A stretch of 64,000 bases of DNA from Incurvaria masculella (taxonomy: Eukaryota; Arthropoda; Insecta; Lepidoptera; Incurvariidae): assembly GCA_946894095.1 (NCBI GenBank), contig OX335644.1:11451595-11515594 (forward strand). Reading direction: 5' to 3'. Within the stretch, counting starts at the first letter, position 1. Each line of letters begins with the position of its first letter. Positions 2,805 to 64,000 of the stretch are shown piece by piece. A program made the position numbers and the translations under genes. Under the pieces are notes generated by a model. The model did not search any database. It was given only the letters and a program-made list of their open reading frames with translations, and had not been told where the DNA came from.

Positions 2805-4643
2805 GTCAGTCAGCGTGTTTGCGTCCACTGCTGGACATACGCCTCTCCAATCCTTCTCCAGTCCTCCCGGCCCTAAGCGGTACGGAACCACTGCTTTCCG
2901 CCGACGCACTTGATGTCGTCTTCCCACCTGGCGGGTGGTCTTCCCACACTCCGTTTGCCTGTCCACGGCCGCCAGTGTAGGACACGGTTACTCCAACGGT
3001 CGTCGTCTCTTCGGCTGACGTGACCAGCCCACTGCCATTTTAGCTTAGCCACCCGGTGTCCAATATCGACTACTTTGGTACGTTGGCGGATTGCCTCGTT
3101 ACGCACCATATCCCGTAGCGATATTCCCAGCATGGCTCGCTCCATTGCTCGCTGGGCAACTTTCAACCTTTGGACAACGGCGACCGTCAGAGTCCACGTT
3201 TCACACCCGTACGTCATAACCGGGAGGACGCACTGGTCATATATTCGGGTCTTTAAATTTTGCGGAAGGTCAGACCTCAGAGCGAACTTAAGCTTTCCGA
3301 AGGCAGCCCAACCCAGTTGAATCCGTCGCTCAACCTCCCTAGACAGTCCTTGTCTACCAAGCCGCAGGATTTGACCGAGATATACGTACTCTTCAACCTG
3401 TTCGATCACTTCTCCGTCGATAACGATTTGTCCTCCCGTCATACCCTCGGTCGCCATGACCTTGGTTTTGTCCCGGTTCATCTTCAGACCTACCTTTATC
3501 GATGCTTCATAAAGGTCTTCCAGCATGGTCTGAAGCTGAACTCGGGAATTCGACAGAAGAACAATGTCATCGGCGAAGCGAAGATGACTGAGAAAATCTC
3601 CATTTACGTTGATACCCATGTTGTCCCATTCAAGCGTCTTGAACACATCTTCCAATGCGTTTGTGAAGAGCTTGGGTGAGATCACATCCCCCTGCCTTAC
3701 GCCTTTACCAAGGAGGATGGGTTGGGTATTTTCATGGAGCCTCACAGTCATCGTCGCGGACGGATACAGATTTTGGAGTACCTCGATGTAGCGGTGGTCG
3801 ATTCTACTTCTCAGAAGGGAGTTTTCGACGGCCCATTTTTCAACTGAGTCGAACGCCTTCTCGTAGTCCACGAAGGCTAGGAAGAGCGGCTTATTGTACT
3901 CCTCGCACTTCTGCACCACTTGTCTCACAGTAAATATGTGATCCATTGTGCCGTATCCTTTTCTGAACCCAGCTTGCTCACCAGGCTGGTACTGATCCAG
4001 CCTCTGTGTCAGCCGACTCGTGATGACTCTTGAAAAGACCTTATACACGTGGCTTAGAAGTGAGATAGGTCGATAGTTTTTCAACTTCGCCCTATCCCCC
4101 TTCTTGTGAAACAGGACAACGACACTATTTCGCCATGCAGCCGGAACGACACCATTTTCGAGAACTGCATTGAACAGTGTTTGCAGTTCCTTCAAGATGG
4201 GTCTCCCGCCAGCCTTTAGCAGTTCCGTCGTTATCCCGTCCTCACCTGGAGCCTTGCATTTTTTAAGTCCTTTCAAAGCAGCCTTTTTCTCATAGACACT
4301 AATCTCCGGTAGGTCCTCGGTGTAGTGTCTAGTGAGCGGCGCACGCCTATCAGAGTCGACTGGTTTGCTTGGGCTCGGGGCAGGAATTGCTGAGGAGTAC
4401 ATTTTGCCATAAAATTCTTCCACCGCCTCAAGTATATCCGGTTTTCTTGCAGTGACAACCCCATCCGCTCGCTCGAGTTTCGAAATGTGGTTAGCGCCGG
4501 TAGAGAAGGCACGGGCAAACACTTTACTGCCTCGATTTTCCTCTATAACGCGCTCAACCAACTTCATGTTCTCTCGGCGAATATCACGGCGAATGGACTT
4601 GCTGATGTTCTTGTTGAGGTTCCTGTGTACTACACTACTCCGG
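2805..4643 (-). mobile_element. RTE-clade non-LTR retrotransposon, 5'-truncated
   Basis: The insertion is 1,839 bp, read on the minus strand, and flanked on both sides by AAGCAAAT (2797-2804 and 4644-4651), an 8-bp target duplication. The 3' end (low coordinates) has a short CTGACTGAC tail instead of poly(A), as is usual for RTE elements. The apurinic endonuclease half is missing because the copy is 5'-truncated. A 136-bp fragment of the same 3' end sits in the integrin gene at 40046-40181. Confidence 0.9.
2873..4643 (-). pseudogene. RTE reverse transcriptase, N-terminally truncated ORF
   Basis: The open frame runs about 590 codons and encodes an RNA-dependent DNA polymerase that would copy the element RNA at a nicked target. 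Visible motifs in order are YRPISLLSHVYKV, AGFRKGYGTMDH, FVDYEKAFDSV, KGVRQGDVISPKLF and the catalytic box LRFADDIVLLSN. These are followed by an RTE-type C-terminal region with YGCETWTL and WAGHVSRR. The stop is TAG at 2873-2875. The endonuclease domain is missing, so it cannot be autonomous. The RT frame itself is uninterrupted, which suggests a fairly recent insertion. An ATG at 4711 lies upstream of the target duplication in older flanking DNA and is not the element's own start. Confidence 0.9.
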
Positions 4644-4651
4644 AAGCAAAT

Positions 4652-5557
4652 AGCAGATCTAAAAATACAAAACAAACATATAAAGTCACACCACGAATGT
4701 AGCACATCCAATAGGACTGAAACCCCCTTCCTACATCAATATGCACAATAGAAAATTAAACGAGCATACCAAAGTGGAGACGATTTTGGCAGATGTATAG
4801 TAACTGACAGGAAGAAATAAATAAAAAATGAACTTATTTTTTATCAGTAATAGTGAAATAATAAAAGAACACATTCAAAACTACACCTTAAGCGGAAACC
4901 GTATTTTTTTAGATAAAATTGATAACATTTCATTTAAAAATACAAAAATAACCTTACAAAAAGACCTTTTTGGTATATTTTAAATACTTTTTTTATTGTG
5001 TTTCGAAGCACAAAATGGTAAGAATACACGTGAATGGTAATAATCATGGCGGTGAAGAAATAGTAATAAGTCCATTGTATTCTGAAAGCAGTAATTTAAA
5101 TATTCCTGTTAGATATACTTATTCCTTTAACTATTGGTAATTTGTTACGAACACAAGCAATCTCAATAATAATCAAGCATTTACGGTATTCCAGTAAGTA
5201 GTAAAATTGTTTTTTTTTTAACATTAATCTTGACCCTAATTATTTTTTTTTATTTTCCGATCAGTGATATCGAAATATTGTTGATATTTTTAAATTTTAA
5301 GATAAACTTAAACAAAGTAACTATCTAAGATTTGTATGTTTTAATGTCTTTCACCTCCGACGGAATGGCTTTTTCTGTCACGGAATGTCCTTTATCTCCT
5401 TGGCTCCAATATTTCGAAATCGTGAACGAATTTTGCATGTTCTGCTAGTCCCAAAGTGACGCAATTTTCATGGTTTGGTCCATATTTTCCGCTCTTTAAT
5501 ATAAGCTAATAAAAACTGATAAATTCCCAAATTTTTTTTGATTCCGCCAAATCTCCA
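4652..5557. other. right part of the 5.0-kb transposon, no coding signal
   Basis: AT-rich DNA between the RTE insertion and the right TIR. Only very short ORFs are present. Changed copies of the CCTTTACCTCC motif occur near 5345 and 5386. Confidence 0.5.
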
Positions 5558-7857: not shown

Positions 7858-7990
7858 ACTAATCCTCCGCTGTCTGTCCGTCCGTACGCCTGCTCGTCTG
7901 TCACAGGGCTGTATTTCATGAGCCGCAATAGATAGGCAGCTAAAATGTTTTACAAATAGTAAAAACTAAAAAATAATAAAAATTCAATGG
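7858..7990 (+). repeat. partial AGGGTTCCG-family repeat
   Basis: Contains the TCTGTCCGTCCGTACG and TCTGTCACAGGGCTGTAT blocks also found in the fuller copies at 8214-8510 and 55610-55892. Confidence 0.5.
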
Positions 7991-28874: not shown

Positions 28875-29111
28875 CTATTGAACACTGTTCCTGTCCTTCA
28901 CTATGAACGGGCTGCCCTCGTGGTTGTTCTTCTCGAGGTTGCCCGAGAGCGTGGGGTCGGGCCTGCTCCGCTTGAAGAAGCCGAACTTCCACAGCGCGAG
29001 GATCAGCAGGATGAGAACCAACAGTCCGGCGACCACCGCCACGATGATCACCCACAGCGGCACCTCCGAGCTATCCGTGCTCTTCAGGTCTGGATACACT
29101 ACTGTCTTCAC
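28875..29111 (-). CDS. integrin alpha exon 15 (transmembrane, GFFKR tail)
   Basis: Acceptor GCTTTTCAG|GTGAAG, phase 0, stop TAG at 28875-28877. Encodes VPLWVIIVAVVAGLLVLILL plus LILALWK as membrane helix, then GFFKRSRPDPTLSGN and a 30-residue cytoplasmic tail. Confidence 0.95.
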   Translation of the reverse strand: MKTVVYPDLKSTDSSEVPLWVIIVAVVAGLLVLILLILALWKFGFFKRSRPDPTLSGNLEKNNHEGSPFIVKDRNSVQ

Positions 29112-32100
29112 CTGAAAAGCGAGATCCAATTAACATTAGATTTGAGAAAATATATTTTGTTTTCGTTGCTTTGGGCAACATTTCATCACAAGCATGGGTA
29201 AGATAAGACTGTTACTGCTTATTAAAAAATAAAAATAAATAAGGTATACATTTTCATGAAGGCGTTTGAAAACCACGTTTGACAATCTCCATGAGAACAA
29301 TTTTAACAAAAAAAATAACCGAGATCAAAGAAAAAGCACTAAAAAGTAAAAAATAATTTCCATTTTTGTAGTTACGATTTTTGTTATTTTTTGAGTCGGC
29401 GTCAGCCGGGCACGCGCTGCGCCAATCAAAAGGACCTTGGCTACCTTGGCTGACACCGTCTCAAAAAATAACAAAAATCGTAACTACAAAAATGGAAATT
29501 ATTTTTTACTTTTTAGTGCTTTTTCTTTGAAGTCGGTTATTTTTTTGGTAACATTTTTTTTATTTGTTTATTTTTAGTGAATCTGAAGTACACTTACTAA
29601 TTTGTACACGTCCTTTCCGATAAAAAAAGAATCACCGAAATCGGTTGGCGTTATATTGAGTTATTCGTCCATTTGTCGCGCACATCTTAATACAAATTTA
29701 AGACTTACATGATTTTCTCATGGATATCATTGTCAGAACTTAACCAAATTAAAATGGGACCACTTGGGAATCACTAGACGAATTGATAACCTCCTCGTTT
29801 TTTGAAGTCGGTTAAAAAGACGAAATAACGCATAGGTGCTGCATCTACCCCTAACCGACAGCGGACAACGGACAGTTTTGGATACGAAACCTGTCAGTTT
29901 ACTGTTAGTTTGTAGTAAGTGCAACACCGGCACCGCGCACCGTAAGCTCGACAAATATCCCGCCTTACTAATAAACATTTGCCCTTACCATCGCCAATAC
30001 TCCGTTATTTCTAGCTAGAAGTACCAGACAGTAAGAAACACCGCAGTAATAGCGATGGTATACATGATTATTAATAAGGCAGATTATGTTAAGCATCGGT
30101 GTAAACCTAAGTAAAGCTGCATCGGTTATAGTAAACGATCGAAGATCGGTTGGACTGGCGCAGAGATACTGACAATAAACGATCGAACATTGGTTGGACT
30201 AGCGCAGAGATACTGACAGTAAACGATCGAACATCGGTTGGACTAGAGCAGAGATACTGACACTAAACGAGTCGTCATAGAGGCGCTCCTGGTGTATGTT
30301 GTAGTGGTCGGGCAGGACGATGCGCCCGAAGGAGGCGATGTTGACGTGCCCCACGTGCGGGTAGTCCTCCACCAGCGTCGAGTTCCAGAGGCGCGCGAGC
30401 ACGTTGATGTTCGCGACCTGACCGCGGCCCAGCTTGTACACGACGCACTGGATCTTTATGCACTTTGCTGTGCCGTTTTGGCAGTTCTGAAATATTATCA
30501 ATTAACTTTACTAAGGCCCGATTTTTCAATCATCAGATAGTACTTATCGGATGGATAGTACAAGTTTACCTGTGTCAAAAGACTAAATAAAAAGTAAATT
30601 GGAAAAATTTCGTTTGACAGAGTCGAACCTCCGGGATTGACTTTGGGGTTTATTTTCTTTATAGAATTCAAGAAAAAAGAACTAGCGATATTAAGTAACC
30701 TGACTTCTACAACCCCCATTTTTTTTATTAAAATGATGAAAGATCAAATTTATTTATATTTTTAATAATATTATTTACATAAAATTTTAATTTTCTTTTT
30801 CTAAATTTGTTTTCTTGTAAATTTTGCTGTAAATAATTTCCCGATCAATGGGTTTTTTTTTTTTTCATGCGGTAACTCTTAAAAGACGTTGGTGCCCTCA
30901 GCCAGGTGCAAAATAACGTATGTGAGACTCTACCTTATATCGTTTTCACATATCTCGTCCGGTTACATGGCAACTGTAAGATGGCTACCGTTCGAGTATG
31001 TGTGGCTGTAAGAAGGGATATCTAAGACTCTCAGAAAGACATTATGTTATAACGATTGACGTAACTAAATTAAATGTGTACTAAATGATTATGGTGATGG
31101 GTTTGGTAACTGTTGGCCTTCATATAAATAAACAAGTACATATGATAATACTTATTTAAAAATATGTACACAAAATGTTAATAACAACCTGATCTAGAAT
31201 TTATTTGCGTACTCACCAAGTTCACGCCTAATCTTCTTTGCCCATCCTTGTTAGTGTAGGCCTCGGGTTTGACGACCATCTCACTATCTCTTTTTCTCCT
31301 AACTCTGTTTCCCTCGGCGCTGCTTAGGCCCTTGACAGTGTTATTGTTGTCGTTTTCCTCTTTGCTGTTTCCCCACTTCCCGTTTCTCTCCAGCATGGTA
31401 TCTAACTTTATGAGGTTCTCTAGTGGGATTTCCACAACTCCCTCCCGCTTCTTTAAAGACAGGGGGTTGATGTATTTGTCGTTGATGAAGCATTCTCCTC
31501 CGCCAGCAGCTGCAGATGTAGGTTACAAATTAAAAAGTACACAAAGTTAAAATGAATGAGGAAATAACTGAACCGCTGCCTAATAAGATGGTGGAACTAT
31601 GAGTAAATATACTATTTCGTACTAAGCAAGTAATTAATTCGCTTTTTTCAATGAATGTGATATGTATGTAAAATCGACCGTATATCAAGGACACACTAAT
31701 TAAAGAAAGAGTGCTATAAGTTTATGACTGCTAGGCTGGACCCGAACCAGAAAACCATACCATTCGCGGGAATTGTTCTACTAATATCGCCATCTTCTTT
31801 ATACCCACAATTTGGAATTCCCCTACAGTCCCTCCTCCTGTAATTAATCCTCCGCCAAACACAGTGCTCAAGATTATACATACTTTTTGTTAACGCATTA
31901 CATTGCGGACATTGACTGCAAATATTGAACATTCAAACCCACGAAAGGTGTTTTGCTGGTTCGGGTTCAGACTTACAGCATTCATAAAGTCGTTGTTTTT
32001 ACAGAAATTGTTTTAATTAATTTGTCGTTGCTACACGCTGAATTCTACACACAAATCACATTTGGTGATACAATGATAGTCCGCAACTCAGGATAGAACC

Positions 32101-35100
32101 TTTTAAAATAGACACTGACCGTTGACATAAGGCTTGTCGTCGAGGTAGAGCAGCCACTTGCCCTGTGGCTTGTCGTTGGCGACCTGGTGTGGCCACCACA
32201 CTTCCACCTGCACCGAGGTCACCCGCCAAGGCCCATCGTTAAATACCTGCAAAATATCAGTCATTTCATATAAACATATGGTATCCGAGGTCCATAGTGA
32301 TCTTGCCATTCTCGTTTTAAAATTATATGCAGAAATTTAGATACAGATTAGTTACTAATTAAAAACCCACACATACCTGATATGTGTGCATGACTCTAGA
32401 GCCGACTTCATCCAAATATTGCATCGCTGATTCTCCTTTGACTTCTCCACCACATGAAACTTGCTCCGGAGTCGGAATGCTGAAACAGATCATCACACAG
32501 TATGACATCTATGATAGTGTAACTACACCGGAGTCGGAATGCTGAAACAGACCATCACACAGCATGACATCTGTGATAGTGTAACATCAATATAGCTTAC
32601 AGTATTTTTTATGAAATTATAAAAAAAATAATTGAGAGGTGTCGTGGAACACCCGTCGCTAAATACCTCAAGAGACTCTTCAAAGTTGGACGGAATAACA
32701 TTTCACAAGTCTTCAAGTTAAACACGAGATTAAGCTTAAAGTACTAGATGCCTATGAAATGGACGCACACTGTTGGAGAGCGTTTCGTTTTCAATTCGGT
32801 CCCAACGCTGGAAGGTTGACATTAATGCCAATCTTCTTTTTCACGAAGAAAAAGACAAACGAATAAAACACAGGTAACGGTTTTATCATTTCGGCCCTTG
32901 AGAAACCTTTGGAGCCACAGGTCTATGACAATAAAAGTGTCGCTCGGACATTTTTTCGCGTCTAGCTCCCATCCGCAAAACAAGCGATAAGTAACATAGT
33001 TCCAATAATAATGTTCCTTCCTTGCTCATGAAAAGTGAATTAGGTTAAATAAATATTTCCCTACATCTTCTGGCAAATCGATTGATAAAAAGTCTTCATC
33101 AAACTATTGAATTGTTTGATCAATACCTACCCAGTTTATGAAATAAAGTAATAAAACAAAAAAAAAATATTAATGGACCACGTGCCTGTTCTAGTAGGTG
33201 TTCATTATTGCTCTAGCGCACAGCGAAACAAAATACGCCACCTACCCTTTCATGTACAGCTCAGCATTCTTGACGACGAGCGCCTCCACCTTGAGGGGCC
33301 TCCAGCCGGGCGTGCGCTCCTGCGACGTGGAGTTGATCCACACCAGGAAGTCCACCGACAGCTCGTGGTCCTCCAACGCCTTGGGGTCGAAGCGCAGCGT
33401 GACCGGCGACGGCGCCGGCAGCTGCTTCTTGAAGGGGTTGCCCAGCGAGCACACAACCACCGACGCGTTGTGGATGTTGCAGATCACGTGCTTGTCCTGC
33501 GTCGGGATACATTTTTGGATCCACTGGACATGGATGGCTAATACCGAACTGGCCTAACACACTACATGGGAAAATCTGTCTTGTGTGTGATGTGACACAA
33601 TGAGCTATATTTCCTATTCATTATATACGTCGCTGTATACTGTACCAGGGGTACAGGTCGGCTGCTTATTAATGCTTGCCCAACCATATTTATTGTTATT
33701 CAACCTGATATGTATGGCTAATACCACACAACTACCGTTATGATATTAGCCCAATACACCACATTCCGGAAATAATAAGGTGCCATGCGAGCACCTTTCC
33801 ATTATGAGCACAGCTACACTGAACTGGAAGGAGAACGTTTTTTTACTGCCGCTTCAAACATAACTAGTTTCAACCAATACGGTGGCTTAACCCTACCACC
33901 TAATAGGGGAAGGGGATCTACAGATTTACATGGGTTTTAAACCATGGTAAAGCTCACATTCGTAATTAATTAATTCGAATTCGAATTCTTAAAAACTCAG
34001 CAAGAGAAAAAAAGTGGTGCACGACCGGGCGAGGATTTGAACCCATAACCTGTCACATGAAAGGCAAGTCCTATAGCCCCTACACCACGAACTGCGGAAA
34101 CTCGGTCTTATCTTGGAAGTGATATTGGCCTCTATATCCAGTACTATACAAAAGGTACAGTACATTCGGCTAAACTTAAACTTACGGTGACATTAGCAGC
34201 GATATAGTGTAGGCCCTCGTGATGATATATGTAGAGGTGGGTCTCGTAGGCCGATTCTCCTTCGTTGTCTGCCATCACCACCAGTCGGATCTCGTCTTCA
34301 CGGCCCAGAGTCAGTGTGTATGCTTTCTTGTCTGCAGCTGTAATATATGAAATAAACGAACATTTATAGTTATACGCTTTTTCTTTTTTAATAGTATATA
34401 TTTGGATTGACTTAAATGGATCAATTAGGTTTAACAACAAATAACTAGCATTATTTAAAAGTACTAGCCAACCCCCAAGATGGACTTTTTCTTGCCACAT
34501 ACCTCGTCAAAAGCGCCACCTACCGGCTCCAAATATATCTAAAAAAAATCTTCAAGTGACCCTATAAGTACAAAAAAAACATCAAAATCTGATTCTGAAT
34601 TTGATAATTTTTTTTTAAAATTCATTATGGATGCTACGAGTATTATACACATGAATTGATATTGCAGTGTAGCGCAGTTGCGACTCGAGAAACGATTAGT
34701 GCTAACGTGGCTTAACTTACCATTTGGCAAGTCGAGGTGGTCTTAACTTACCCATTGGCAAGTCGAGGTCGGCTTGGAGGCGCAGGTCGCTGATGCAGAT
34801 CGAGTCGGAGCCGCAGTCGTTGAGGAAGGTGGCGGCGAAGGCATTCGTGGCGGTGGCGTTAAGCACCGGGTACTCGTCCATGTTAGGCAGCGGCCCGAGA
34901 GCGCTGTAGCGTGGCTGTGACAGCACCAGCGAGTAGTTTAGCTGGAACTGGAAACGTTCGTGGAGTTTACTTCTTTATCTCTCAACTTTTATTACTTTGC
35001 TTTTAGTGTGGGTAACCCACAATCACAATCGATCTCATTACAAATATGGTTGTGAAGTAGAAAATGTTCAGAAAAAGTTGGCTTATATAATATGCACTTT

Positions 35101-41100: not shown

Positions 41101-44100
41101 AATCTTGCAGGACTAAGGGATGATTTTGCAATAGTCTGATAAACAGCCAGATAACAATCTGACGGATTTATTACGCTTCTGCTTATCCATCCGATATAGA
41201 AAGTCAATATGTTTATTAGTAAAATTATCGTCTGATAATTATGATAGAAGATATAATCCTCCGGCAATGACTATACGTTTTTAGGAAAACGTGAATTAGT
41301 CTTAATTAGCCCGATAAATACTCGCTGGGGATTGAAAAAACGGCCCTTAAAGTATTGTGCGAGATGTAGGTACCTAAGTTGCTGTACTTGGGCACGGGAC
41401 TGGCTTCGTCGAGTGGCGCGTAGTAAACCTGCTTGTCTCGCGCGAGGTAGCTCTCCCTGTTGTCCATGGTGAAGATGGTGCCCCGCCAGGTGTAGGGGCC
41501 CGGGCTCCCCACCAGCAGCGTGCCGTCGGCCAGCAGGGAGCTGCTCGTGCCCGCCTGGCAGTAGCCGAACTCTTCGTGCTCCCTGGTCGTGCATGCACGG
41601 TTACGAGAAACTCTCTGATGTTGTCCAGTAGATAAGGAGGTTTGTTCGTAGCAATTTCTGATGTAACTTCTTGAAAGTATGAAGTTACAAAATATAACTG
41701 TAGTGGCGATTACATTTAAATCGTTTAAAAAAAGCTGCAATTAATATGATAATTCGAAGGATTTACTTTAGAGGAATAGCGCAAGAAGAACCATGTCGCT
41801 ATGCCTCATAATTAATTCACAAATGCCATATTTGTTTATACATTGTTTTATTGACTCGCCGATTCAGTTATAGTAGTAACAAGAAAGCTGAACTCAATCA
41901 TTAGCAGGATGGCCGTCTACGCAAGAGACCAACGAGCATTTTCACTCGGCGAAGGGCCGCTAATGCTATATTTAATAAATTTTCTTACGGAAACCTTCAA
42001 TTATATTCAGAAACAGGAAACGTATTCCACGACTATTGTCATTAATTACGTCCATTCTGAATGTGGGTCACAATAAAGTTTACAAATGAGGTCAGATGAT
42101 GAGGACATTGAGGTGTGGTGCCTACAATAGCGTGTGAATTAGCAGGCAGGTTAGTAGGCGTATTCATTACATACATATATTTTCATTTATTATCCATTAA
42201 AAGGTAAAAAGCCAGTCCGAGAAATACTTTACTGTGGTACTGATTATGATGAAACCAAACAACGGATATGAGTGGATAAGAAAAGCAGTTTCTCACCTTT
42301 TGACAGGGCGTCCCTTGCACGGTTCCCATATATTGTCGTAACTCAACTCATTGTTGAGCGTATAGCACAGTCCTTGCCCGTACTGGGACTCGCCCATTTT
42401 TCGAATATATCTGGAAAAAATAAAGGGATCTTAGGGCCATCGTTGCTTAAGAACTTGGCACATTTAATTATTTATGATCTATAAAAAAAGAGATTGGTTT
42501 ACATATGCGGTTATTAGATTTTATGGTCTGTGACCTTTCGGAACTGAACACGGTTTATATCTGAGGAACCTTCTAAAGAGCGCTGCGTACCCGCGCCTTG
42601 GCAAGGCATTACCGTCCTGTCATGGTGCGCGTGGAGGGACCCTTTAAGAAGCTCAAGATAAGACCAACCTGTGCACGCACACGATGACCATGCCCGCGCC
42701 CTGGCTGCGCACGGACACGCCCAGCCACTGCCCCTCCTTGATCTCTTCCTTTCACGGTCTGCGTAGAGGGGCCCTCTAAGAGGCTCAAGATAAGACCGAC
42801 CTGTGCACACACACGATGACCATGCCCGCGCCCTGGCTGCGCACGGACACGCCCAGCCACTGCCCCTCCTTGATCTCTTCCTTTCACGGTCTGCGTAGAG
42901 GGGCCCTCTAAGAGGCTCAAGATGAGACCGACCTGTGCGCGCACACGACGACCATGCTCTCGCTCTGGCTGCGCACGGACACGCCCAGCCACCTCCCTTC
43001 CTTGATCTCGTCCTTTCACGGTCCGCGTAGAGGGGCCCTCTAAGAGGCTCAAGATAAGACCGACCTGTGCACACACACGATGACCATGCCCGCGCCCTGG
43101 CTGCGCACGGACACGCCCAGCCACTGCCCCTCCTTGATCTCTTCCTTTCACGGTCTGCGTAGAGGGGCCCTCTAAGAGGCTCAAGATGAGACCGACCTGT
43201 GCGCGCACACGACGACCATGCTCTCGCTCTGGCTGCGCACGGACACGCCCAGCCACCTCCCTTCCTTGATCTCGTCCTTTCACGGTCCGCGTAGAGGGGC
43301 CCTCTAAGAGGCTCAAGATAAGACCGACCTGTGCACACACACGATGACCATGCCCGCGCCCTGGCTGCGCACGGACACGCCCAGCCACTGCCCCTCCTTG
43401 ATCTCTTCCTTTCACGGTCTGCGTAGAGGGGCCCTCTAAGAGGCTCAAGATGAGACCGACCTGTGCGCGCACACGACGACCATGCTCTCGCTCTGGCTGC
43501 GCACGGACACGCCCAGCCACCTCCCTTCCTTGATCTCGTCCTTTCACGGTCCGCGTAGAGGGGCCCTCTAAGAGGCTCAAGATAAGACCGACCTGTGCAC
43601 ACACACGATGACCATGCCCGCGCCCTGGCTGCGCACGGACACGCCCAGCCACTGCCCCTCCTTGATCTCTTCCTTTCACGGTCTGCGTAGAGGGGCCCTC
43701 TAAGAGGCTCAAGATGAGACCGACCTGTGCGCGCACACGACGACCATGCTCTCGCTCTGGCTGCGCACGGACACGCCCAGCCACCTCCCTTCCTTGATCT
43801 CGTCCTTTCACGGTCCGCGTAGAGGGGCCCTCTAAGAGGCTCAAGATAAGACCGACCTGTGCACACACACGATGACCATGCCCGCGCCCTGGCTGCGCAC
43901 GGACACGCCCAGCCACTGCCCCTCCTTGATCTCTTCCTTTCACGGTCTGCGTAGAGGGGCCCTCTAAGAGGCTCAAGATGAGACCGACCTGTGCGCGCAC
44001 ACGACGACCATGCTCTCGCTCTGGCTGCGCACGGACACGCCCAGCCACCTCCCTTCCTTGATCTCGTCCTTTCACGGTCCGCGTAGAGGGGCCCTCTAAG

Positions 44101-47100
44101 AGGCTCAAGATAAGACCGACCTGTGCACACACACGATGACCATGCCCGCGCCCTGGCTGCGCACGGACACGCCCAGCCACTGCCCCTCCTTGATCTCTTC
44201 CTTTCACGGTCTGCGTAGAGGGGCCCTCTAAGAGGCTCAAGATGAGACCGACCTGTGCGCGCACACGACGACCATGCTCTCGCTCTGGCTGCGCACGGAC
44301 ACGCCCAGCCACCTCCCTTCCTTGATCTCGTCCTTTCACGGTCCGCGTAGAGGGGCCCTCTAAGAGGCTCAAGATGAGACCGACCTGTGCGCGCACACGA
44401 CGACCATGCCCGCGCCCTGGCTGCGCACGGACACGCTCAGCCACTGCCCCTCCTTGATCTCGTCCCTGCGCACGAACTCGCCCAGCCACTTCCCCTCCTA
44501 GATCTCGTCCTTAAACAGTCCGCGTAGAGGGGCCCTCTAAGAGGCTCAAGATGAGACCGACCTGTGCGCGCACACGAAGACCATGCCCGCGCCCTGGCTG
44601 CGCACGGACACGCTCAGCCACTGCCCTTCCTTGATCTCGTCCCTGCGCACGAACACGCCCAGCCACTTCCCCTCCTAGATCTCGTCCTTAAACAGTCCGC
44701 GTAGAGGGGCCCTCTAAGAGGCTCAAGATGAGACCGACCTGTGCGCGCACACGAAGACCATGCCCGCGCCCTGGCTGCGCACGGACACGCTCAGCCACTG
44801 CCCCTCCTTGATCTCGTCCCTGCGCACGAACACGCCCAGCCACTTCCCCTCCTAGATCTCGTCCTTAAACAGTCCGCGTAGAGGGGCCCTCTAAGAGGCT
44901 CAAGATGAGACCGACCTGTGCGCGCACACGACGACCATGCCCGCGCCCTGGCTGCGCACGGACACGCTCAGCCACTGCCCCTCCTTGATCTCGTCCCTGC
45001 GCACGAACACGCCCAGCCACTTCCCCTCCTAGATCTCGTCCTTAAACAGTCCGCGTAGAGGGGCCCTCTAAGAGGCTCAAGATGAGACCGACCTGTGCGC
45101 GCACACGACGACCATGCCCGCGCCCTGGCTCCGCACGGACACGCCCAGCCACTGCCCCTCCTTGATCTCGTCCCGCCGCGGCGCGCGCAGCTCGTCAGTC
45201 TCGATCCCTGCGTACACACATTTCGTACACACTACTTCTTGAACTCATACTCATTTACCACCTACCAATTTAATAATCGTATTCAACAAATATATTACAA
45301 AAAGGATTAAGAAAACAAAAAAAAATCTAAATCGATTAGCACTGTAAAATTAGTACACAAAACAAAAAAAATATCATACTCCCGGCACACGCCTATGAAA
45401 AATAAGTAATTATATGTTATGAACTCACAAACCAAACTTCAGTGGGCGGTATTTCGACGAAGGGATAAATGGTAGGTAGTACAGGTGAGTGTTTATTCAG
45501 CAGAACTTAAAGGCAGCATCTATAATTATTATGCAAGCCTTTGTGCTTGGTGAAGCGTGAATTTTTTAAGTTTTCGATTGTAATTGTGTAGATATTTGAA
45601 GTGAAATAAAGTGGTATGAAAGTGAAACCTTACATTTAGAAATCCTTGAGCATGAATTTAAGTCAAATTTTAAACCAACGTGATTAGGATTACATAGTTT
45701 CCATATGTAAGGTATTCAAACAAAATGCACAGGCGTATGTTCAAGGCGTGAAGATGCGATGCTATATGTGTATGTAGAAATAGATGATATCAAAGGAAAA
45801 CAATGAGATGAAACAAACGAATGCATAGGTATGCTCACCCAAATATCATGAGATTGCATACACGGCGCTTCATAAACGCAATTTTAATAAAATAATTGCA
45901 TGCATAACATTTATTCCTACTTATAAATTATTAATTCTTTATCGTTGTTTCCGAAATAACTGTCCACCTAAAATCGTAGCATCAAACAAAAAGCTGCACC
46001 TAACTGGGCTGAAAAAGACAATGAAACTTTTGTAAACACGTAGTGTGGTCTCAGGTTAAAGGAAAATTATGAAGTAAGTCTACGGTTTGTTAATCGTATG
46101 AGACGTTCACGATGTTGGTATGTGGCGTTAGTTACCATCACGTACAACACCTAATATTAAGTTGTTATTGGTGATAATGGTGTCGGCTCGCGACTCTCGA
46201 TGGATCAGCAAAATTATATTTGTTATTTGGTTACACTACGAGTTTTATGACCTTTGAACCAGATATACTGTGGGTTTAATATTTCGTAGAGATGTTATAA
46301 GTATTATTATGATTAAATTCATTAATAGAATAAAATAATCGTCTATGGATTTGTAAAAAAAATCAAGAATGAAAATTAAAATAGTGAGACGTGTATTTTT
46401 TTCACGAATCCATGACAATTAGTATACGTATTTTATTTTAAATATTAAAAGTTCAAGGACCTTCAGTCTGTATTTTCATCACAAAAAACAAGTTTGAGCT
46501 ATATATGTGTACTTAAATTCCTTATATTCGTAGATAATTGTGACGGGGTTACCGAATATTAAGAAAAAAGTCCTTGATTTCTTAATTAGTGGCTCTAAAA
46601 AAATACGGAACCAAATATGCAATGCGCCAATAACCGTTAAGTCTTACCCACTGTCCTATAATGTCAAATGTTAAATACTACTGATTTACTTAATTTTGGA
46701 ACATCGTTACATCTAAAAAACAAAACTAAACTATGCAATAAATCAATTATGAACTTAATAGGTAATTGTTAAATAAGCATCTATATAAATATGAAATATT
46801 GTTTAACTTATTTATCGGTGACCAGGTTTGACCGAGAAAATAAATATGCGCTGCTATAACCAATCAAAAATGAAAAGAAAAGAAACATTTGCAAGCTCTG
46901 ACTCAAGCAATGACTACGAATAGGTTTTTACGCTTTAACCGACCAGTGAATTATTGACAAATACACCCAGAAAATGTGCGTGGATTTCTTCTATTTCGTA
47001 TCGTTTGAGACGCAGATCCTAGCTTGAATGTGAGCACCTTCGTTGGAACTTGAATTAACTTAATCGAAGACAAAACGGTCGGTTAAAACATATCAAAAAA

Positions 47101-54085: not shown

Positions 54086-55370
54086 TAGGTCGGGGAAAAA
54101 GACTTTTCGCATTATAGTATGTATGAACTTGTAATAAAATCTCTTTGGCTATACTATTTGTATCTGGCTGGTTTTGGTATCATTGAAAGTTTAAATTTTA
54201 AAGAACATAATTCCAAATTCAAATTAGGAAAATGTGTGATTCTCATTTGTTTTTCGTACTGTCAAAATGAGTGAATCTAATGAAGAAATTCGATACATTT
54301 TAAAATTTTACTACAAAAAAGGTAAAAATGCAACGCAAGCCGCGAAAAAAATTTGCGATGTTTATGGACCTAGTGCAGTGTCTGTGAGAGTAGCACAAAT
54401 TTGGTTTAAGCGTTTTCAATCCGGAAATTTTGATGTCAAAGATGCACGTCGCTCTGGTCGCCCTATTACGGATAAAATGGATGCCATTTTTGAAAAAGTG
54501 GAGCAAGATCGGCATATCAGTAGTTACGACGTAGCTGAAGAACTAGGAATTGACCACAAAACAGTTTTGGCGCATTTGAAAAAAACTGGGTACACAAAAA
54601 AGCTCGATATTTGGGTACCTCACGAGCTCACTGAAAGAAACCTAATGAACCGTGTACTCATTTGTGATTCTTTATTACGACGTAATGAAACCGAACCATT
54701 TTTGAAGAAGCTGATAACTGGTGATGAAAAGTGGATCACGTACGACAAGAACGTGCGAAAAAGGTCGTGGTCAAAGGCCGGTCAAGCTTCACAGACTGTG
54801 GCGAAACCCGGGTTAACTCGCAACAAGGTGATGCTGTGTGTGTGGTGGGATTGGAAGGGCATTATTCATTATGAGCTGTTACCACCAGGCAGGACCATCG
54901 ATTCTGAACTCTACTGCGAACAACTGATGAGATTAAAGCAAGAAGTTGAGAGAAAGCGGCCGGAATTAATCAACAGAAGGGGTGTGGTTTTTCATCATGA
55001 TAACGCTAGACCTCACACATCTTTAGCCACTCAGCAAAAACTAAGAGAGTTTGGCTGGGAGGTGTTAATGCATCCGCCGTATAGTCCTGACCTTGCACCT
55101 TCAGATTTCCACCTGTTTAGGTCTCTTCAGAATTCTTTAGGCAGTGTCAGGTTAACATCACGAGAGGACTGCCAAAACCACTTGTCGCGGTATATTGATC
55201 AGAAGTCCCACTATTTCTATAGCAATGGGATCATGTCCCTACCTACAAGATGGCAAAAAGTTATCGAACAAAATGGTACCTACATACTTTAGTTAAATGT
55301 AAATAAACCATATTAAAAAATGTTTTGAATTTTCTTAAAAAATGCGAAGAAACTTTTTCCCCAACCAATA
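54086..55370 (+). mobile_element. mariner transposon, apparently intact
   Basis: The ends TAGGTCGGGGAAAAAGACTT (from 54086/54087) and the complement of TTGGTTGGGGAAAAAGTTTC (to about 55368) form about 28-bp inverted repeats with 23 matches. A TA follows the right end. The length of about 1.28 kb is standard for mariner. The exact left boundary, and a TA there, is uncertain by one or two bases. Confidence 0.9.
54267..55292 (+). CDS. mariner transposase (DD34D, cecropia-like), full length
   Basis: A 341-residue cut-and-paste transposase that would bind the inverted ends and move the element into TA sites. Residues 1-110 form the two helix-turn-helix DNA-binding units. WVPHEL at 116-121 is the mariner interdomain signature. 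Catalytic Asp residues are in TGDEKW (D153), HHDNARPH (D245) and YSPDLAPSD (D280), with exactly 34 residues between the last two. Length is normal for the family and there is no stop or frameshift. Sequence resemblance to SETMAR/Hsmar1-like proteins suggests the cecropia group. All visible catalytic residues are present, so it may be active or only recently silenced. Confidence 0.95.
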   Translation: MSESNEEIRYILKFYYKKGKNATQAAKKICDVYGPSAVSVRVAQIWFKRFQSGNFDVKDARRSGRPITDKMDAIFEKVEQDRHISSYDVAEELGIDHKTVLAHLKKTGYTKKLDIWVPHELTERNLMNRVLICDSLLRRNETEPFLKKLITGDEKWITYDKNVRKRSWSKAGQASQTVAKPGLTRNKVMLCVWWDWKGIIHYELLPPGRTIDSELYCEQLMRLKQEVERKRPELINRRGVVFHHDNARPHTSLATQQKLREFGWEVLMHPPYSPDLAPSDFHLFRSLQNSLGSVRLTSREDCQNHLSRYIDQKSHYFYSNGIMSLPTRWQKVIEQNGTYIL

Positions 55371-59622: not shown

Positions 59623-60100
59623 TCAGCTACTCCTTAGAGCCAATGACAGCTTGAAAAAATATACAACTTCTCTGAACTCGTTTGACCAGGGCTTTCCCAA
59701 TGATTCGTGTATCTTAAAAAATAAATTCATTCTATCCGTAGACAATATTTTTTCAAGACCCAGTCGAAGCCTCTCGTTCAGAACACACTCCATAAACAGG
59801 TGAAATTGATCTTCTGGCTTGTCACAGGCAGAACAATTTGGAGAGTCCAGTTTCTTCATCATATGTCCCATTATATTTAGAGAAGTGTGTCCTGATCTGA
59901 GTCTTAAGCCAATAGTAATGATTTCTCTAGGCAGATGGACACTGCTAAACCAAGGGATACAGAGTGGTTCAGATACAATCGTTTTGTACCAAATTCCCCT
60001 CTCCACAGACCTCCTGTCAAAGTGTTCTTTCCACATTTGTCTACATATTCCTTTGGCTTTCGGCAGAACGTCAGTGAAGAAAGGCTTGGTGGTGTAGATT
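59623..60100 (-). pseudogene. C-terminal part of ORF2 after a frameshift
   Basis: A shifted frame continues beyond the ORF2 stop. It contains LRLRSGHTSLN and the Cys/His cluster CSACDKPEDQFHLFMECVLN, the typical C-terminal zinc-binding region after RNase H, and stops at 59623. The shift lies near 60110-60130, just after the RNase H GNEKAD motif, in or near a run of A. The copy is therefore no longer fully coding. Confidence 0.85.
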
Positions 60101-63100
60101 ACATTTGAGCACGTAGCTCTTTTTGCTTCGGCTTTGCATCGTCGGCTTTTTCATTGCCTTCTATGCCTACATGGGATGGAATCCATTGAAATTTAACATT
60201 TTTTCCGATTGATATCAGTTCCATAAATATTTTTAAGATTGTGTAAGCAATAGGCCTTCCCCGAGTCCCCTTCGTACAATAAACCAAGTGTTGAAGTGCA
60301 CTTTTAGAGTCGGTCAAAATGACTATATTTTTTGCATTTAGAGATAAGCTGTACGAAAGGGCTTCGGAAATTGCTATGAGTTCGGCCGCCATTATTGGTA
60401 CTTGTCCATCTATCTTTAGTTCCAATCCAATGCCAGAATTGGGATCCCACCACGAAGATCCTTTACCATTTACATCAATAGATCCATCAGTATATAACTT
60501 GTAGTACTTTTTGTAGCATGTTTCAATTATAATCTTGGTCTTATTTTTTAATACAGTGGTGCTAAATTCCTTTTTTGACTTATTAATAAATTCTAAATTA
60601 AAATTCACACATTTTCTAATTGGAATTCTGGTTACCCATGTTTCTAGCGAGAACATTGGTAGGACAGGACTGTTTTCTATGTCAATATTCTTCAATTTAG
60701 CAAAGCTTGACGCCAGTATCGGAAAGTTATGGTTATTCCAATACTGAGAATCTAGAGTCGACGCTAACTTTTCCAATAACTTATTTAGAGGGCTGTTCGT
60801 ACACGCTTTATTCTTGAGTAAATACTTCATTGCCAAATAACTGCATCTTACATGTAGTGGTTGCACGCACAAATCACTCTCCATCACATGAATTGGAGTA
60901 CTTTTAACATAACCGCCAACTATTCGTAAGGCTCTGTTTTGTAGGACAGATAATTTCCTGAGGTTTGACTGCGCACAGTTTCCATACAGAAAGCATCCAT
61001 AGTCAAGACGGCTACGTATAAGAGCTATATATAATCTTCTTAAATGTGTTTGATGTATTCCCCACGAAGACCCAGCTAGTACTTTAAGAATATCCAAATA
61101 TTTTCCTGTTCTTAAAATGTTTTCTTTTACATTATTTTTCCAATTTAAACTTTGATCTAACCATAATCCTAAAGCTCTAATACAGGTGTTCCGTGCCAAA
61201 TCGTTTCCATTAACAGTGATTTTAATTGGTTTTCTCCGGATTCCCCTTACAAAAACGCAAAATTCAGTTTTTGTTTCAGACAGTCGTAGTCCTATTTTAT
61301 TTAACAAACATGACATGGTATTAAGAGCCTGTTCTATACATTCGGCTGCAAATTGTAAATTTTGAGAGGTGATAAAAAATATAAAATCGTCGGCATATTG
61401 AACTATACCTACATCGACAATATGTTTGCAAATACAGATGGTAACAATATTAAATAGGATCGGGGACATAGGGTCCCCTTGGGCAAGGCCATTGTGACAT
61501 TTTCTTTTAAAACAAATATCTTCAGACTCAATTTGAAGATATCGAACACTTAAAAAATTCCAAATATATTGGCATATCAGTTTTCCAAACTTAAATTCAT
61601 TCAAGCAACTAATCAAAGAATTTACATTAACATTATTATAAGCATTGTCGATATCAACAAAACAGGCTAGTGTGGGTTCATTTTTGACTTGTCCTAGATT
61701 AATAGTGGTCACTATTCGAGAGAGATTATCTAGACAAGATTGTCCTCGTCGAAAGCCATGTGTGGAATTACTTAATAATTTATTGTGTTCTGCAAACCAC
61801 TCTAACCTTTTTGCAATCATCGCATTGAATATTTTGCAGGGACATGACATAAGAGAGATCGGGCGAAAGGATGATGTCAGAGCTGGGTCTCTACCAGGTT
61901 TAGGAATCGCAATCACTTTTATGTTCCTCCATTGCAAGGGCACAATTCCAGTAGAAAAAATTAGATTAAATAATCGGAGTAATACAACCTTACCAGATGG
62001 CGGCATGTTTCTGAGCATTGAATAAGTAATACCATCGATGCCCGGGGCCGTGTCCTTTGACTTCAGAACACTCTCCAACTCGTCTTCTGTAAATGCGGCG
62101 TCCAGTAGGCTGTGTCCAAAATGTACAAAAGATATTGGTGATTCTTCAGCAGTATCGGGGGCCAGGCTGCAGAGGAGTTCTTCGGCTCGCTTGTCTTCGA
62201 TGTTCGTGCTGTTTTGACGGATGCCCTTCATCCACCTCATCTTGCGCCCCATATCGGCTGCAGATGTTTGACTATTTATATTGTCGCAGAAATCATTCCA
62301 ACCCTTATCTCTGGCTTTTCGTGTTTCTTTTCTCGCATTATTAATCCTATTATGCAAAAAATTGTAAGCTTGCGGAGTGCCAGTTCTCCTAAATTGTGAG
62401 AGCGCTAATCTTCTTTCGGCGATGGCTTTACTAATGGTAATGTTCCACCATGGTTTGGGGTGAAATGTCTCTTGTGAATTAGGGTTAATATGGATCCATG
62501 GGATACATTCTTCCGCGGCTGTGTCAAGATTTTTTACGAACCATTCATAAGCCTTTTGAAGATTTTCTGGGCGATTGGAGGCGCCAAAACTTAAATTTAA
62601 TTTTTCTCCATATTTATGCCAATCAGCTAACTTCATATTCCTTTTTTTCTCTCTGACCATGATGTTGTCTATCCCGAAACGAATTTGAATAATAATGTGA
62701 TCACTGCCTAAATTTTCTTGAGTCGTTTTCCAACTGCTGATTAGGGATATATCTGGAGTACAAAATGTTATATCTGGGGAAGTTTCCTGGAGCATATTAC
62801 TTCTTAATTTGACTCTGGTATGGCTGCCATCATTCAGTGCAATGAGATTATTGTCCATACATGCGTTGAAAATGTCTTCCCCTCTTGTGTCTATTTTGCA
62901 CGACCAGTGAGTGTGATGTCCATTAAAATCTCCTCCGATGACAGTGCTTTGGTCAAATTGAGAAAATAAGTGATTCCAATCTTCCTGTGTGGTGTGTACT
63001 GATGGAGAGCAGTAAACGGCTAATATATTGCGTATCGGAGAGCAGTTCAACACCTCTACGCCTATAACTTCGATGCTTGGGTTCTGATTGCATATTGGCA

Positions 63101-63338
63101 GATTCCTTAGCTTGATAGACTTGTGAGTTAAGATGCAGACTCCTCCGTAACCATCTTCCCTATCACGCCTGATAATATTGTATCCACTTACTTTTATCTG
63201 TGTTTTCTCATTAAGCCAGGATTCCGATATTAGACACACATGTACTTTAAATTGATATAACACACTTTCCAGATCAAGTTTCTTTGGCATTAAGCTTCGG
63301 GCGTTCCATTGAATTAAATTAATATTTTTACAAGCCAT
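60099..63338 (-). CDS. non-LTR ORF2: endonuclease, reverse transcriptase, RNase H
   Basis: A 1,079-codon frame. Residues about 1-225 form an apurinic-type endonuclease (IQWNARSL, ISESWL, GGDFNGHHTHW, GSDHIIIQ) that nicks the target. Residues about 430-720 are the reverse transcriptase (FRPISLMSCPCKIFN, HGFRRGQSCLDNL, FVDIDNAYNNV, LAQGDPMSPILFN and the catalytic VQYADDFIFFI). Residues about 945-1065 are RNase H (LYTDGSID, AELIAISEAL, LTDSKSALQHL, QWIPSHVGIEGNEKAD). The start ATG overlaps the ORF1 stop as TAATG, a coupled termination/reinitiation layout known from other non-LTR elements. The frame ends early at 60099 owing to a frameshift; the usual C-terminal region continues in another frame. 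Confidence 0.93.
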   Translation of the reverse strand: MACKNINLIQWNARSLMPKKLDLESVLYQFKVHVCLISESWLNEKTQIKVSGYNIIRRDREDGYGGVCILTHKSIKLRNLPICNQNPSIEVIGVEVLNCSPIRNILAVYCSPSVHTTQEDWNHLFSQFDQSTVIGGDFNGHHTHWSCKIDTRGEDIFNACMDNNLIALNDGSHTRVKLRSNMLQETSPDITFCTPDISLISSWKTTQENLGSDHIIIQIRFGIDNIMVREKKRNMKLADWHKYGEKLNLSFGASNRPENLQKAYEWFVKNLDTAAEECIPWIHINPNSQETFHPKPWWNITISKAIAERRLALSQFRRTGTPQAYNFLHNRINNARKETRKARDKGWNDFCDNINSQTSAADMGRKMRWMKGIRQNSTNIEDKRAEELLCSLAPDTAEESPISFVHFGHSLLDAAFTEDELESVLKSKDTAPGIDGITYSMLRNMPPSGKVVLLRLFNLIFSTGIVPLQWRNIKVIAIPKPGRDPALTSSFRPISLMSCPCKIFNAMIAKRLEWFAEHNKLLSNSTHGFRRGQSCLDNLSRIVTTINLGQVKNEPTLACFVDIDNAYNNVNVNSLISCLNEFKFGKLICQYIWNFLSVRYLQIESEDICFKRKCHNGLAQGDPMSPILFNIVTICICKHIVDVGIVQYADDFIFFITSQNLQFAAECIEQALNTMSCLLNKIGLRLSETKTEFCVFVRGIRRKPIKITVNGNDLARNTCIRALGLWLDQSLNWKNNVKENILRTGKYLDILKVLAGSSWGIHQTHLRRLYIALIRSRLDYGCFLYGNCAQSNLRKLSVLQNRALRIVGGYVKSTPIHVMESDLCVQPLHVRCSYLAMKYLLKNKACTNSPLNKLLEKLASTLDSQYWNNHNFPILASSFAKLKNIDIENSPVLPMFSLETWVTRIPIRKCVNFNLEFINKSKKEFSTTVLKNKTKIIIETCYKKYYKLYTDGSIDVNGKGSSWWDPNSGIGLELKIDGQVPIMAAELIAISEALSYSLSLNAKNIVILTDSKSALQHLVYCTKGTRGRPIAYTILKIFMELISIGKNVKFQWIPSHVGIEGNEKADDAKPKQKELRAQM

Positions 63339-64000
63339 TACTTTAAGAATATTCCAAGAGAGCTTTCCAAAATAAGCTTTTTAAGAAAGGTTATAATCTC
63401 ACTCATAATAAATTGTGCCATTTTGGTGATTTTGTCCCCCCAGCTCTGTCCGTCACTTCCTGCAATATCTTTTAGGCCATCAAATATTTCTCGCAGTGCA
63501 CTTGGGCTTTCTTCTTCCGTGTCACGTGAGGTATAGACTGGTATCGTTTTCTCTCTGGGTTCGTTGCTGGTTGTCGGTATATTTTTCGCTTGTACACGTT
63601 GTGGGCTTTGGGATTTCCGTACAAAGTCACAACGTCGGGGTCTTGCTGGTGAAGCTAAGGTCTCGTGAGGGTGGCTCGACGACGCAGTCTTCCACAAGAC
63701 ATCTTCTTTTGGCCTCTCTGAGGCGCATGCAGCGGCATACGACCTCGACAGAGAGGCAAAAGGAATGCTTGCAGGTTGAGCGGGCGGCTGTCTGTCTGGT
63801 ACAACTTCTGAACTTGTCGTTGCTAATTCTGGTGTTCTCTGTTTGCCATACATTTGTAATGCCATTTTATATGTCACATTGTTTTGTGACATAATGTGAC
63901 GAAGCTGCTTCTCTTTTAAGAATATGGGGCATATTTTGTCAAGTGCCATATGTTCGCCCTTGCAGTTGACACATTTGAACACGGTAGTAACACAATTTTC
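63338..64000 (-). CDS. non-LTR ORF1 (gag-like), C-terminal part only
   Basis: Visible are a zinc-knuckle-like CVNCKGEH then MALDKICPIF (C-x2-C-x4-H-x6-C), a Pro/Ser-rich middle and a C-terminal amphipathic segment. The protein is expected to bind element RNA. The frame is open to the right edge, so the true start lies outside the window. The last bases TAATG couple it to ORF2. Confidence 0.8.
   Translation of the reverse strand, partial: ENCVTTVFKCVNCKGEHMALDKICPIFLKEKQLRHIMSQNNVTYKMALQMYGKQRTPELATTSSEVVPDRQPPAQPASIPFASLSRSYAAACASERPKEDVLWKTASSSHPHETLASPARPRRCDFVRKSQSPQRVQAKNIPTTSNEPREKTIPVYTSRDTEEESPSALREIFDGLKDIAGSDGQSWGDKITKMAQFIMSEIITFLKKLILESSLGIFLK

Follow-up and report, generated by a model that had tools for sequence, protein, structure and literature searches.

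Within a stretch of 64,000 nucleotides from the moth Incurvaria masculella (GenBank assembly GCA_946894095.1, contig OX335644.1, our C4:11451595-11515594; hereafter the window), the gene for integrin alpha-PS1 carries, directly behind one of its coding exons (exon B), an array in which the end of this exon and its splice donor stand 18 times in tandem on the minus strand. From our point of view, the array is best explained as a young and unstable minisatellite that was born at the splice junction and is tolerated through use of the exon-proximal donor, a reading to which we assign a probability of roughly 0.7 on the basis of the sequence.

Structure of the alpha-PS1 donor array

The integrin identity given in the original prediction, which had been made from the letters of the window, could be specified by protein matches: a rough 928-residue join of open pieces returned lepidopteran alpha-PS1 proteins at the top (among the best 120 of 2,015 hits), and the Plutella protein (1,118 residues) is collinear with the window from residue 59 (at 49274) through to its C-terminal end (at 28878). 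The phases of exons A, B, C and D match and their joined frame is open (Table 1), and the acceptor predicted at 42410 is that of exon C. Neither the window nor the adjoining 40 kb upstream yielded the N-terminal ~58 residues of the Plutella orthologue. With these residues missing and a coding exon (exon A) lying upstream, the source of the array probably ranks as coding exon 3 or higher, and its earlier numbering as exon 2 was too low. A simple motif search between exons A and B did not find the microexon of lepidopteran isoforms.

Each unit comprises the terminal 80 nt of exon B, the donor and 52 nt of intron, as had been predicted. The first bases of the 18 donors lie at 45092, 44915, 44738, 44561, 44384 and 44252 and from there in 132-nt steps down to 42668; 17 of them read GTCGGT and one GTTGGT. 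The spacings of 132 and 177 nt were anticipated correctly but in the wrong order, as transcription meets the 177-nt intervals first (four, followed by 13 of 132 nt). Tandem Repeats Finder (TRF) accordingly lists periods of 132 bp (14 copies), 264 bp (7 copies) and 177 bp (5 copies). A 45-nt partial exon copy, likewise foreseen, lies in each of the four 177-nt intervals, with 5 or 6 positions that differ from the exon. Among the donors read for exons A to N, 4 of 14 carry a C at position +3 (B, GTCGGT; E, GTCCGT; L and N, GTCAGT), an uncommon base at this position.

The 132-nt units fall into nine distinct types, of which type B occurs six times in identical form and type A five times, with one further variant 1 nt off. 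Types A and B alternate and differ at 12 of 132 positions, while the 264-nt dimers that they form are identical in five successive cases and 1 nt off in the sixth; in the seventh place no A/B dimer is found (149 of 264 positions equal). With dimers identical and neighbouring units different, the array is a higher-order minisatellite, as the predicted mostly alternating arrangement had implied. Divergence is highest in the last unit (up to 19 differences).

Identical 264-nt dimers are difficult to assemble, and one could speculate that the copy number has been inflated, or created altogether, by the assembler. This is extremely unlikely, given that nine distinct unit types follow in an ordered pattern, that the locus lies within a 27.35-Mb contig of an assembly of 31 contigs (552,006,686 bases) and in a window free of N, and that comparable arrays occur at unrelated loci (see below).

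In the integrin frame, every one of the 18 units has a TGA at +13 past its donor. With these in-frame stops, no coding role has to be invoked for unit lengths that are multiples of three. All 17 distal donors lead to the same premature stop four codons past the residues CAHR, in line with the expectation that a distal donor would truncate the receptor, and inclusion of any of seven 90-nt pseudo-exons in the array also leads to a stop (7/7). The motif CAHRYI, which spans the junction of exons B and C, is conserved in all 32 aligned insect relatives. As the junction protein is conserved and the distal donors all give stops, the donor at 45092 must work.

Several other accounts of the array were discarded. 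Two open frames of 633 and 640 residues run through it, but neither is the integrin frame, which argues against a coding array. The four Pfam matches to these frames (E up to 0.01) were regarded as weak and fortuitous; one of them, to Helic-prim_T7_N (E 1e-6), is barely past its cut-off, falls on a repetitive translation and has no single stretch that passes. For DNA or RNA hairpins as drivers, the folding of the units was no better than that of shuffled sequences (z 0.32 and 0.73). A G-quadruplex motif with four runs of G3 is absent from the array, in which 31 starts of G2 motifs were counted.

Origin and age of the array

A 301-base query from the array was compared with the whole genome in a search that skipped very common words and scored the best candidates alone, and all 11 matches lie inside the alpha-PS1 array. 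A satellite inserted from elsewhere was rejected on this ground; the same exon sequence within an unrelated satellite, which the original prediction had named as counter-evidence to an exonic source, did not appear in this search. A paralogue of the exon as source was rejected as well, as all 21 matches from a genome-wide protein search fall in the alpha-PS1 gene or the array. Among the best 120 of 2,015 protein hits, a motif of the QWLGVSV type occurs once in 114, is absent from 6 and occurs twice in none, i.e. no duplicated exon was found in these relatives. The array edges blend into exon and intron with a 5-bp microhomology. Together with the confinement of the genome matches to this locus, this supports exon B as the source, as had been proposed.

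The microhomology consists of two GGACG pentamers, one 81 nt before the donor in exon B and the other 51 nt past the last donor. If the pre-array state is taken as exon B plus the tail of the last unit, they lie exactly 132 nt, that is one period, apart; among position pairs at least 60 nt apart in this sequence, 0.7% match over at least 5 bp. The founding event was hence likely a single microhomology-mediated tandem duplication between these pentamers, by which the final 80 nt of exon B, the donor and 52 nt of intron would have been copied. An added 45-nt internal duplication and repeated exchange could then have produced the 18 units with their 177-nt and 264-nt higher-order periods; from this pattern we infer later growth by unequal exchange or conversion. 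As expected of an array edge, it is the last unit that has diverged most, and the inner dimers are identical.

Exon B lacks a residue that is found in 31 of 32 aligned relatives. As the same gap is common to all units, the array postdates this loss. Assuming 2.9e-9 as the mutation rate and a star-like history, six dimers without any difference would place the last spread at most ~0.65 million generations ago, which is a rough bound as the sixth dimer carries one difference. The array thus appears to be young relative to the gene.

Duplications at other splice sites of the gene and genome

In the original prediction the array was a single oddity. This view did not hold, as kindred structures were found at three other alpha-PS1 splice sites, in an integrin-beta gene and in a myosin gene. 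TRF reports four arrays with a period of at least 30 in the window, and all four cross splice sites of alpha-PS1. Besides the main array these are duplications of the ends of exons H and N with their donors and of the acceptor of exon K (coordinates counted by hand; Table 1). The upstream copy of the exon K acceptor runs into a TAG in the exon frame, as followed by hand. A separate scan at offsets of 20-400, which left out low-complexity matches and the main array, returned only the same three duplications and, at 7894, a 48-nt pair with a distance of 391 nt. When arrays are placed at random within the gene, the probability that four of four fall on splice sites is 0.001 with the main array counted as 264 nt and 0.0026 with its whole length, and 0.003 for the three smaller duplications alone, in a test that is post hoc and in which several exon boundaries are 1-5 nt off.

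For integrin beta, all 14 Pfam matches were fetched together with their flanks. In a gene of a cluster on our contig C7, the first coding exon, with a signal peptide-like start and a PSI domain (PF17205, E 1e-11), ends in AGGG/GTAAGT (the slash marks the junction) and is followed by an array with a period of 185-202 nt made of its last ~145 nt, the donor and intron. Three of the four downstream donor copies are weakened or lost (GTGAGT in one, GTGACT in one, GT lost in two), a decay that fits neutrality as well as selection against competition. At a second C7 locus (L034:2395-3029), a 178-nt array of 3.6 copies contains nearly all of an integrin-beta exon in each unit, to which no true donor is assigned. 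For the other 12 loci, the repeat scan gave nothing in 10, and two overlapping loci on C5 share a 24-nt pair, 40 nt apart. To three further arrays in the fetched regions no splice site is assigned, namely L022:9342-9683, L039:1-1383 and L021:8731-9960; the last, at which no exon was identified, has 15 copies of an 82-nt unit (TRF 100% matches) with GCGCAGGTCCGA in each unit.

For myosin heads, 30 loci (102,570 bases) were fetched from 77 Pfam matches. Eight of the 30 have arrays with a period of at least 30, and one of these eight straddles a splice site: on the minus strand of C15, the acceptor and 5' part of an unconventional myosin exon (myosin-XV as the best match among solved structures, E 3e-23) recur in 13 copies ahead of the exon itself, which makes 14 near-identical acceptors in total. 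At L063:1709-2816 (C19), a 75-nt array of 14.8 copies begins ~13 nt past the donor of a myosin exon and does not contain it, and at L044:3502-3575 (C5) a 38-nt duplication (TRF 100% matches) includes the donor-like TTCAG/GTGAGC, to which no exon is assigned; the remaining arrays lie away from the matched exon. By our own arithmetic, ~2 to 3 overlaps with the ends of exon matches, mostly from long arrays, are expected by chance in the 30 loci. A general targeting of splice sites is not supported by this sample, as one in eight arrays is no excess over this number.

Splice-site arrays nevertheless recur in this genome, in donor and acceptor forms that mirror each other. The process that we propose for exon B may have left tandem copies at these further sites, donors and acceptors alike. 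Duplications that straddle a junction would survive because they can be spliced away, provided that the outermost site on the side of the exon is used, while those within exons would harm the protein and be selected against. Mutation combined with such survivorship is the simplest account and would yield the two mirror forms, i.e. donor copies downstream of the exon and acceptor copies upstream. That they form a genome-wide recurrent class which converts ordinary introns into long runs of near-identical splice sites and in which copy number sets a background of premature stops in important genes is conceivable, yet we regard it as unlikely.

Table 1. Features of the alpha-PS1 array, its gene and related arrays (window positions unless a locus is named; a slash marks the splice junction)
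Feature	Position	Strand	Remarks
18-unit donor array	42613..45174 (TRF extent)	minus	177/132-nt spacing, 264-nt higher-order dimers
Exon-proximal donor GT	45091..45092	minus	CAG/GTCGGT; sole one of 18 leaving the frame open
Four 45-nt partial exon copies	45040-44996, 44863-44819, 44686-44642, 44509-44465 (region 44465..45040)	minus	GATCTAG vs exon GATCAAG
90-nt pseudo-exons, four of seven	44210-44121, 43946-43857, 43682-43593, 43418-43329 (within 42669..44210)	minus	ACGCAG/ACCGTG ... CACAG/GT; acceptor-like ACGCAG before each
90-nt pseudo-exons, remaining three	43154-43065, 42890-42801, 42758-42669	minus	acceptor-like ACGCAG before each
GGACG microhomology, exonic copy	45169..45173	minus	81 nt before donor
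GGACG microhomology, intronic copy	42613..42617	minus	51 nt past last donor
Exon A, coding, upstream of exon B	49275-49148	minus	in-frame join
Exon B, functional, array source	45093..45207	minus	115 nt, phase 1 in, phase 2 out; in-frame join and insect alignment
Exon C, next after exon B	42297..42410	minus	in-frame join, Plutella alignment
Exon D	41582-41374	minus	in-frame join
Second duplication: exon H end and donor GTAAGT	34707..34775	minus	31-nt unit; donors 34751, 34720; TRF and sequence
Third duplication: exon N end (~9 nt) and donor GTCAGT	30132..30270	minus	44-nt unit; donors 30261, 30217, 30173; TRF and sequence
Fourth duplication: exon K acceptor, twice	32466..32585	minus	62-nt unit; CTGTTTCAG/CATTCCGACTCCGG; exon starts 32541, 32479; TRF and sequence
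Integrin-beta donor array	L039:6014-7052 (C7) with L026:1-399		5.5 copies, 185-202 nt; exon end, donor and intron
Myosin acceptor array	L071:1634-3979 (C15)	minus	158 or 156 nt spacing; last acceptor is that of the real exon

The window further contains an open reading frame for a mariner-type transposase (54240-55292, plus strand, 350 residues) and two for retroelement reverse transcriptases on the minus strand (60099-63380, 1,093 residues; 2873-4735, 620 residues).

Donor choice and alternative explanations

Without the array, the intron between exons B and C would measure 258 nt (42668 to 42411); it now measures 2,682 nt (45092 to 42411), and the intron preceding exon B is ~3.9 kb long. All 18 donors share a modelled U1 pairing of -8.5 kcal/mol, as compared with -5.7 to -9.6 for five other alpha-PS1 donors. 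In the parts of a study on competing splice sites considered here (PMC9225289), the upstream of two equal strong donors was exclusively used in an exon-defined minigene, and among near-equal donors of a transcriptome the upstream one was preferred in the class LL (strict exon-definition) and the downstream one in the classes SS and LS, labels that we take as long or short flanking introns. Given the long introns on both sides of exon B and this upstream preference, the first donor would be expected to prevail at present, although exon skipping and the stage at which the array was still small leave real uncertainty. As such, exon B would be defined across the exon owing to its long flanking introns, the donor at 45092, nearest to the acceptor, would be used, and the copies would be removed with the intron. 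Being nearly invisible in the mRNA, the array could have spread and persisted. Occasional use of a distal donor or a pseudo-exon would lead to premature stops and decay, which would represent a small cost and not a purpose.

Reportedly, Turri, Cuin and Porter described in 1995 (NAR 23:1854) a minisatellite with a 12-bp unit in the human interferon-induced gene 6-16 (IFI6/G1P3), a repeat of the donor-containing intronic kind. Among the closest likenesses is the variable number tandem repeat (VNTR) in intron 18 of human ABCA7, for which the sections considered of PMC5954066 give a 25-bp unit that begins at the donor, a copy number of ~12 to 427 and an influence on splicing. There, as in alpha-PS1, the array stands right after the exon with the authentic donor inside a unit and copies downstream, and the next donor leads to a premature stop. 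The alpha-PS1 array differs in its higher-order structure and in a unit of 132 or 177 bp, of which 80 nt come from the exon.

It is possible, although in our opinion unlikely, that the alpha-PS1 array itself tunes splicing, as the original prediction had suggested for an array whose length could vary between individuals. The number of units would then set the share of transcripts that use a distal donor, include a pseudo-exon or skip exon B and are degraded, and thereby the dose of the receptor. The stops from all 17 distal donors and all seven pseudo-exons would agree with this, as would the equal U1 pairing and the human precedent, in which the exon 18 donor of ABCA7 lies in the VNTR and splicing, including the skipping of exon 19, depends on its length (PMC5954066, same sections). 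However, the retained-unit event given there concerns one unit, use in exon-defined minigenes fell exclusively to the upstream of equal strong donors (PMC9225289), and three of the four copied donors in the integrin-beta array are weakened or lost.

The statement that 18 donors stand behind one acceptor is true of the exon, but within the array an AG directly precedes GT at the unit junctions and seven acceptor-like ACGCAG are present. All 17 units, of 132 or 177 nt, are thus bounded by GT and AG, and one could imagine that they remove themselves singly or stepwise, such that the normal mRNA is restored whichever donor is used. Tandem duplications of AGGT that copy a splice junction are known to create introns, with the copies spliced away and stops in the new introns (PMC2891723 and PMC4974935, as far as considered here). 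The nearest multi-copy case in the latter is that of 24-bp AGGT duplications in fission yeast, with introns across four and two duplicates. In contrast to these examples, in which an exon gains an intron, the alpha-PS1 array enlarges an existing one: every copy sits in the intron between exons B and C, and no new intron within former exon sequence was found in the array. Ratchet points of recursive splicing in Drosophila likewise juxtapose acceptor and donor as AG/GT (PMC8605326, in the part considered), but the alpha-PS1 unit junctions appear to have neither a strong pyrimidine tract nor a branch-like motif. The AG of a unit is preceded by 9-10 pyrimidines in 16 positions, as compared with 9-15 at five real acceptors and 7 at that of exon B itself, and a CTNA motif 45 to 15 nt before the AG is absent from all 17 units, as it is from the corresponding stretch of three of six real acceptors (B, D and F). 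From our point of view, self-removal is very unlikely.

Several points weigh against a young minisatellite that is tolerated through its first donor. In the considered parts of PMC9225289, weak equal donors showed upstream preference in small exons and mostly exon skipping in larger ones, and GTCGGT could itself belong to the weak donors. The downstream preference of the class LS, if this means a long upstream and a short downstream intron, would bear on the time before expansion, when the intron of 258 nt was near the limit of 200-250 nt quoted in the same source. That all 18 donors keep their GT with equal U1 pairing can be read as maintenance, although recent homogenisation explains this equality. 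In the copied part of the exon, 12 of 32 differences (not independent) are silent, somewhat more than the 23.5% of possible single changes that the absence of constraint would predict, a mild excess that may or may not reflect constraint. Lastly, the clustering of four arrays at alpha-PS1 splice sites exceeds what plain survivorship predicts (P ~0.001 to 0.003, post hoc), and this clustering is not shared by the myosin sample (one of eight arrays).

Overall, the present analysis adds to the array itself three more splice-site duplications in alpha-PS1, a donor array in an integrin-beta gene and an array with 14 acceptors in a myosin gene. In the titles and abstract openings of the open-licence literature, no splice-site arrays in Lepidoptera were found, which is a weak negative since the subscription literature is mostly uncovered. 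The choice among equal splice sites is usually studied in minigenes with two sites. Here, one exon with 18 near-equal donors and another with 14 near-equal acceptors, together with smaller versions at other junctions, provide a natural test, in genes (alpha-PS1 and myosin) that are expected to need one correct mRNA, of whether proximity across the exon suffices. The arrays further illustrate how minisatellites can start at exon edges, be tolerated and enlarge an intron tenfold, and how exon-like repeats within introns can mislead gene prediction.

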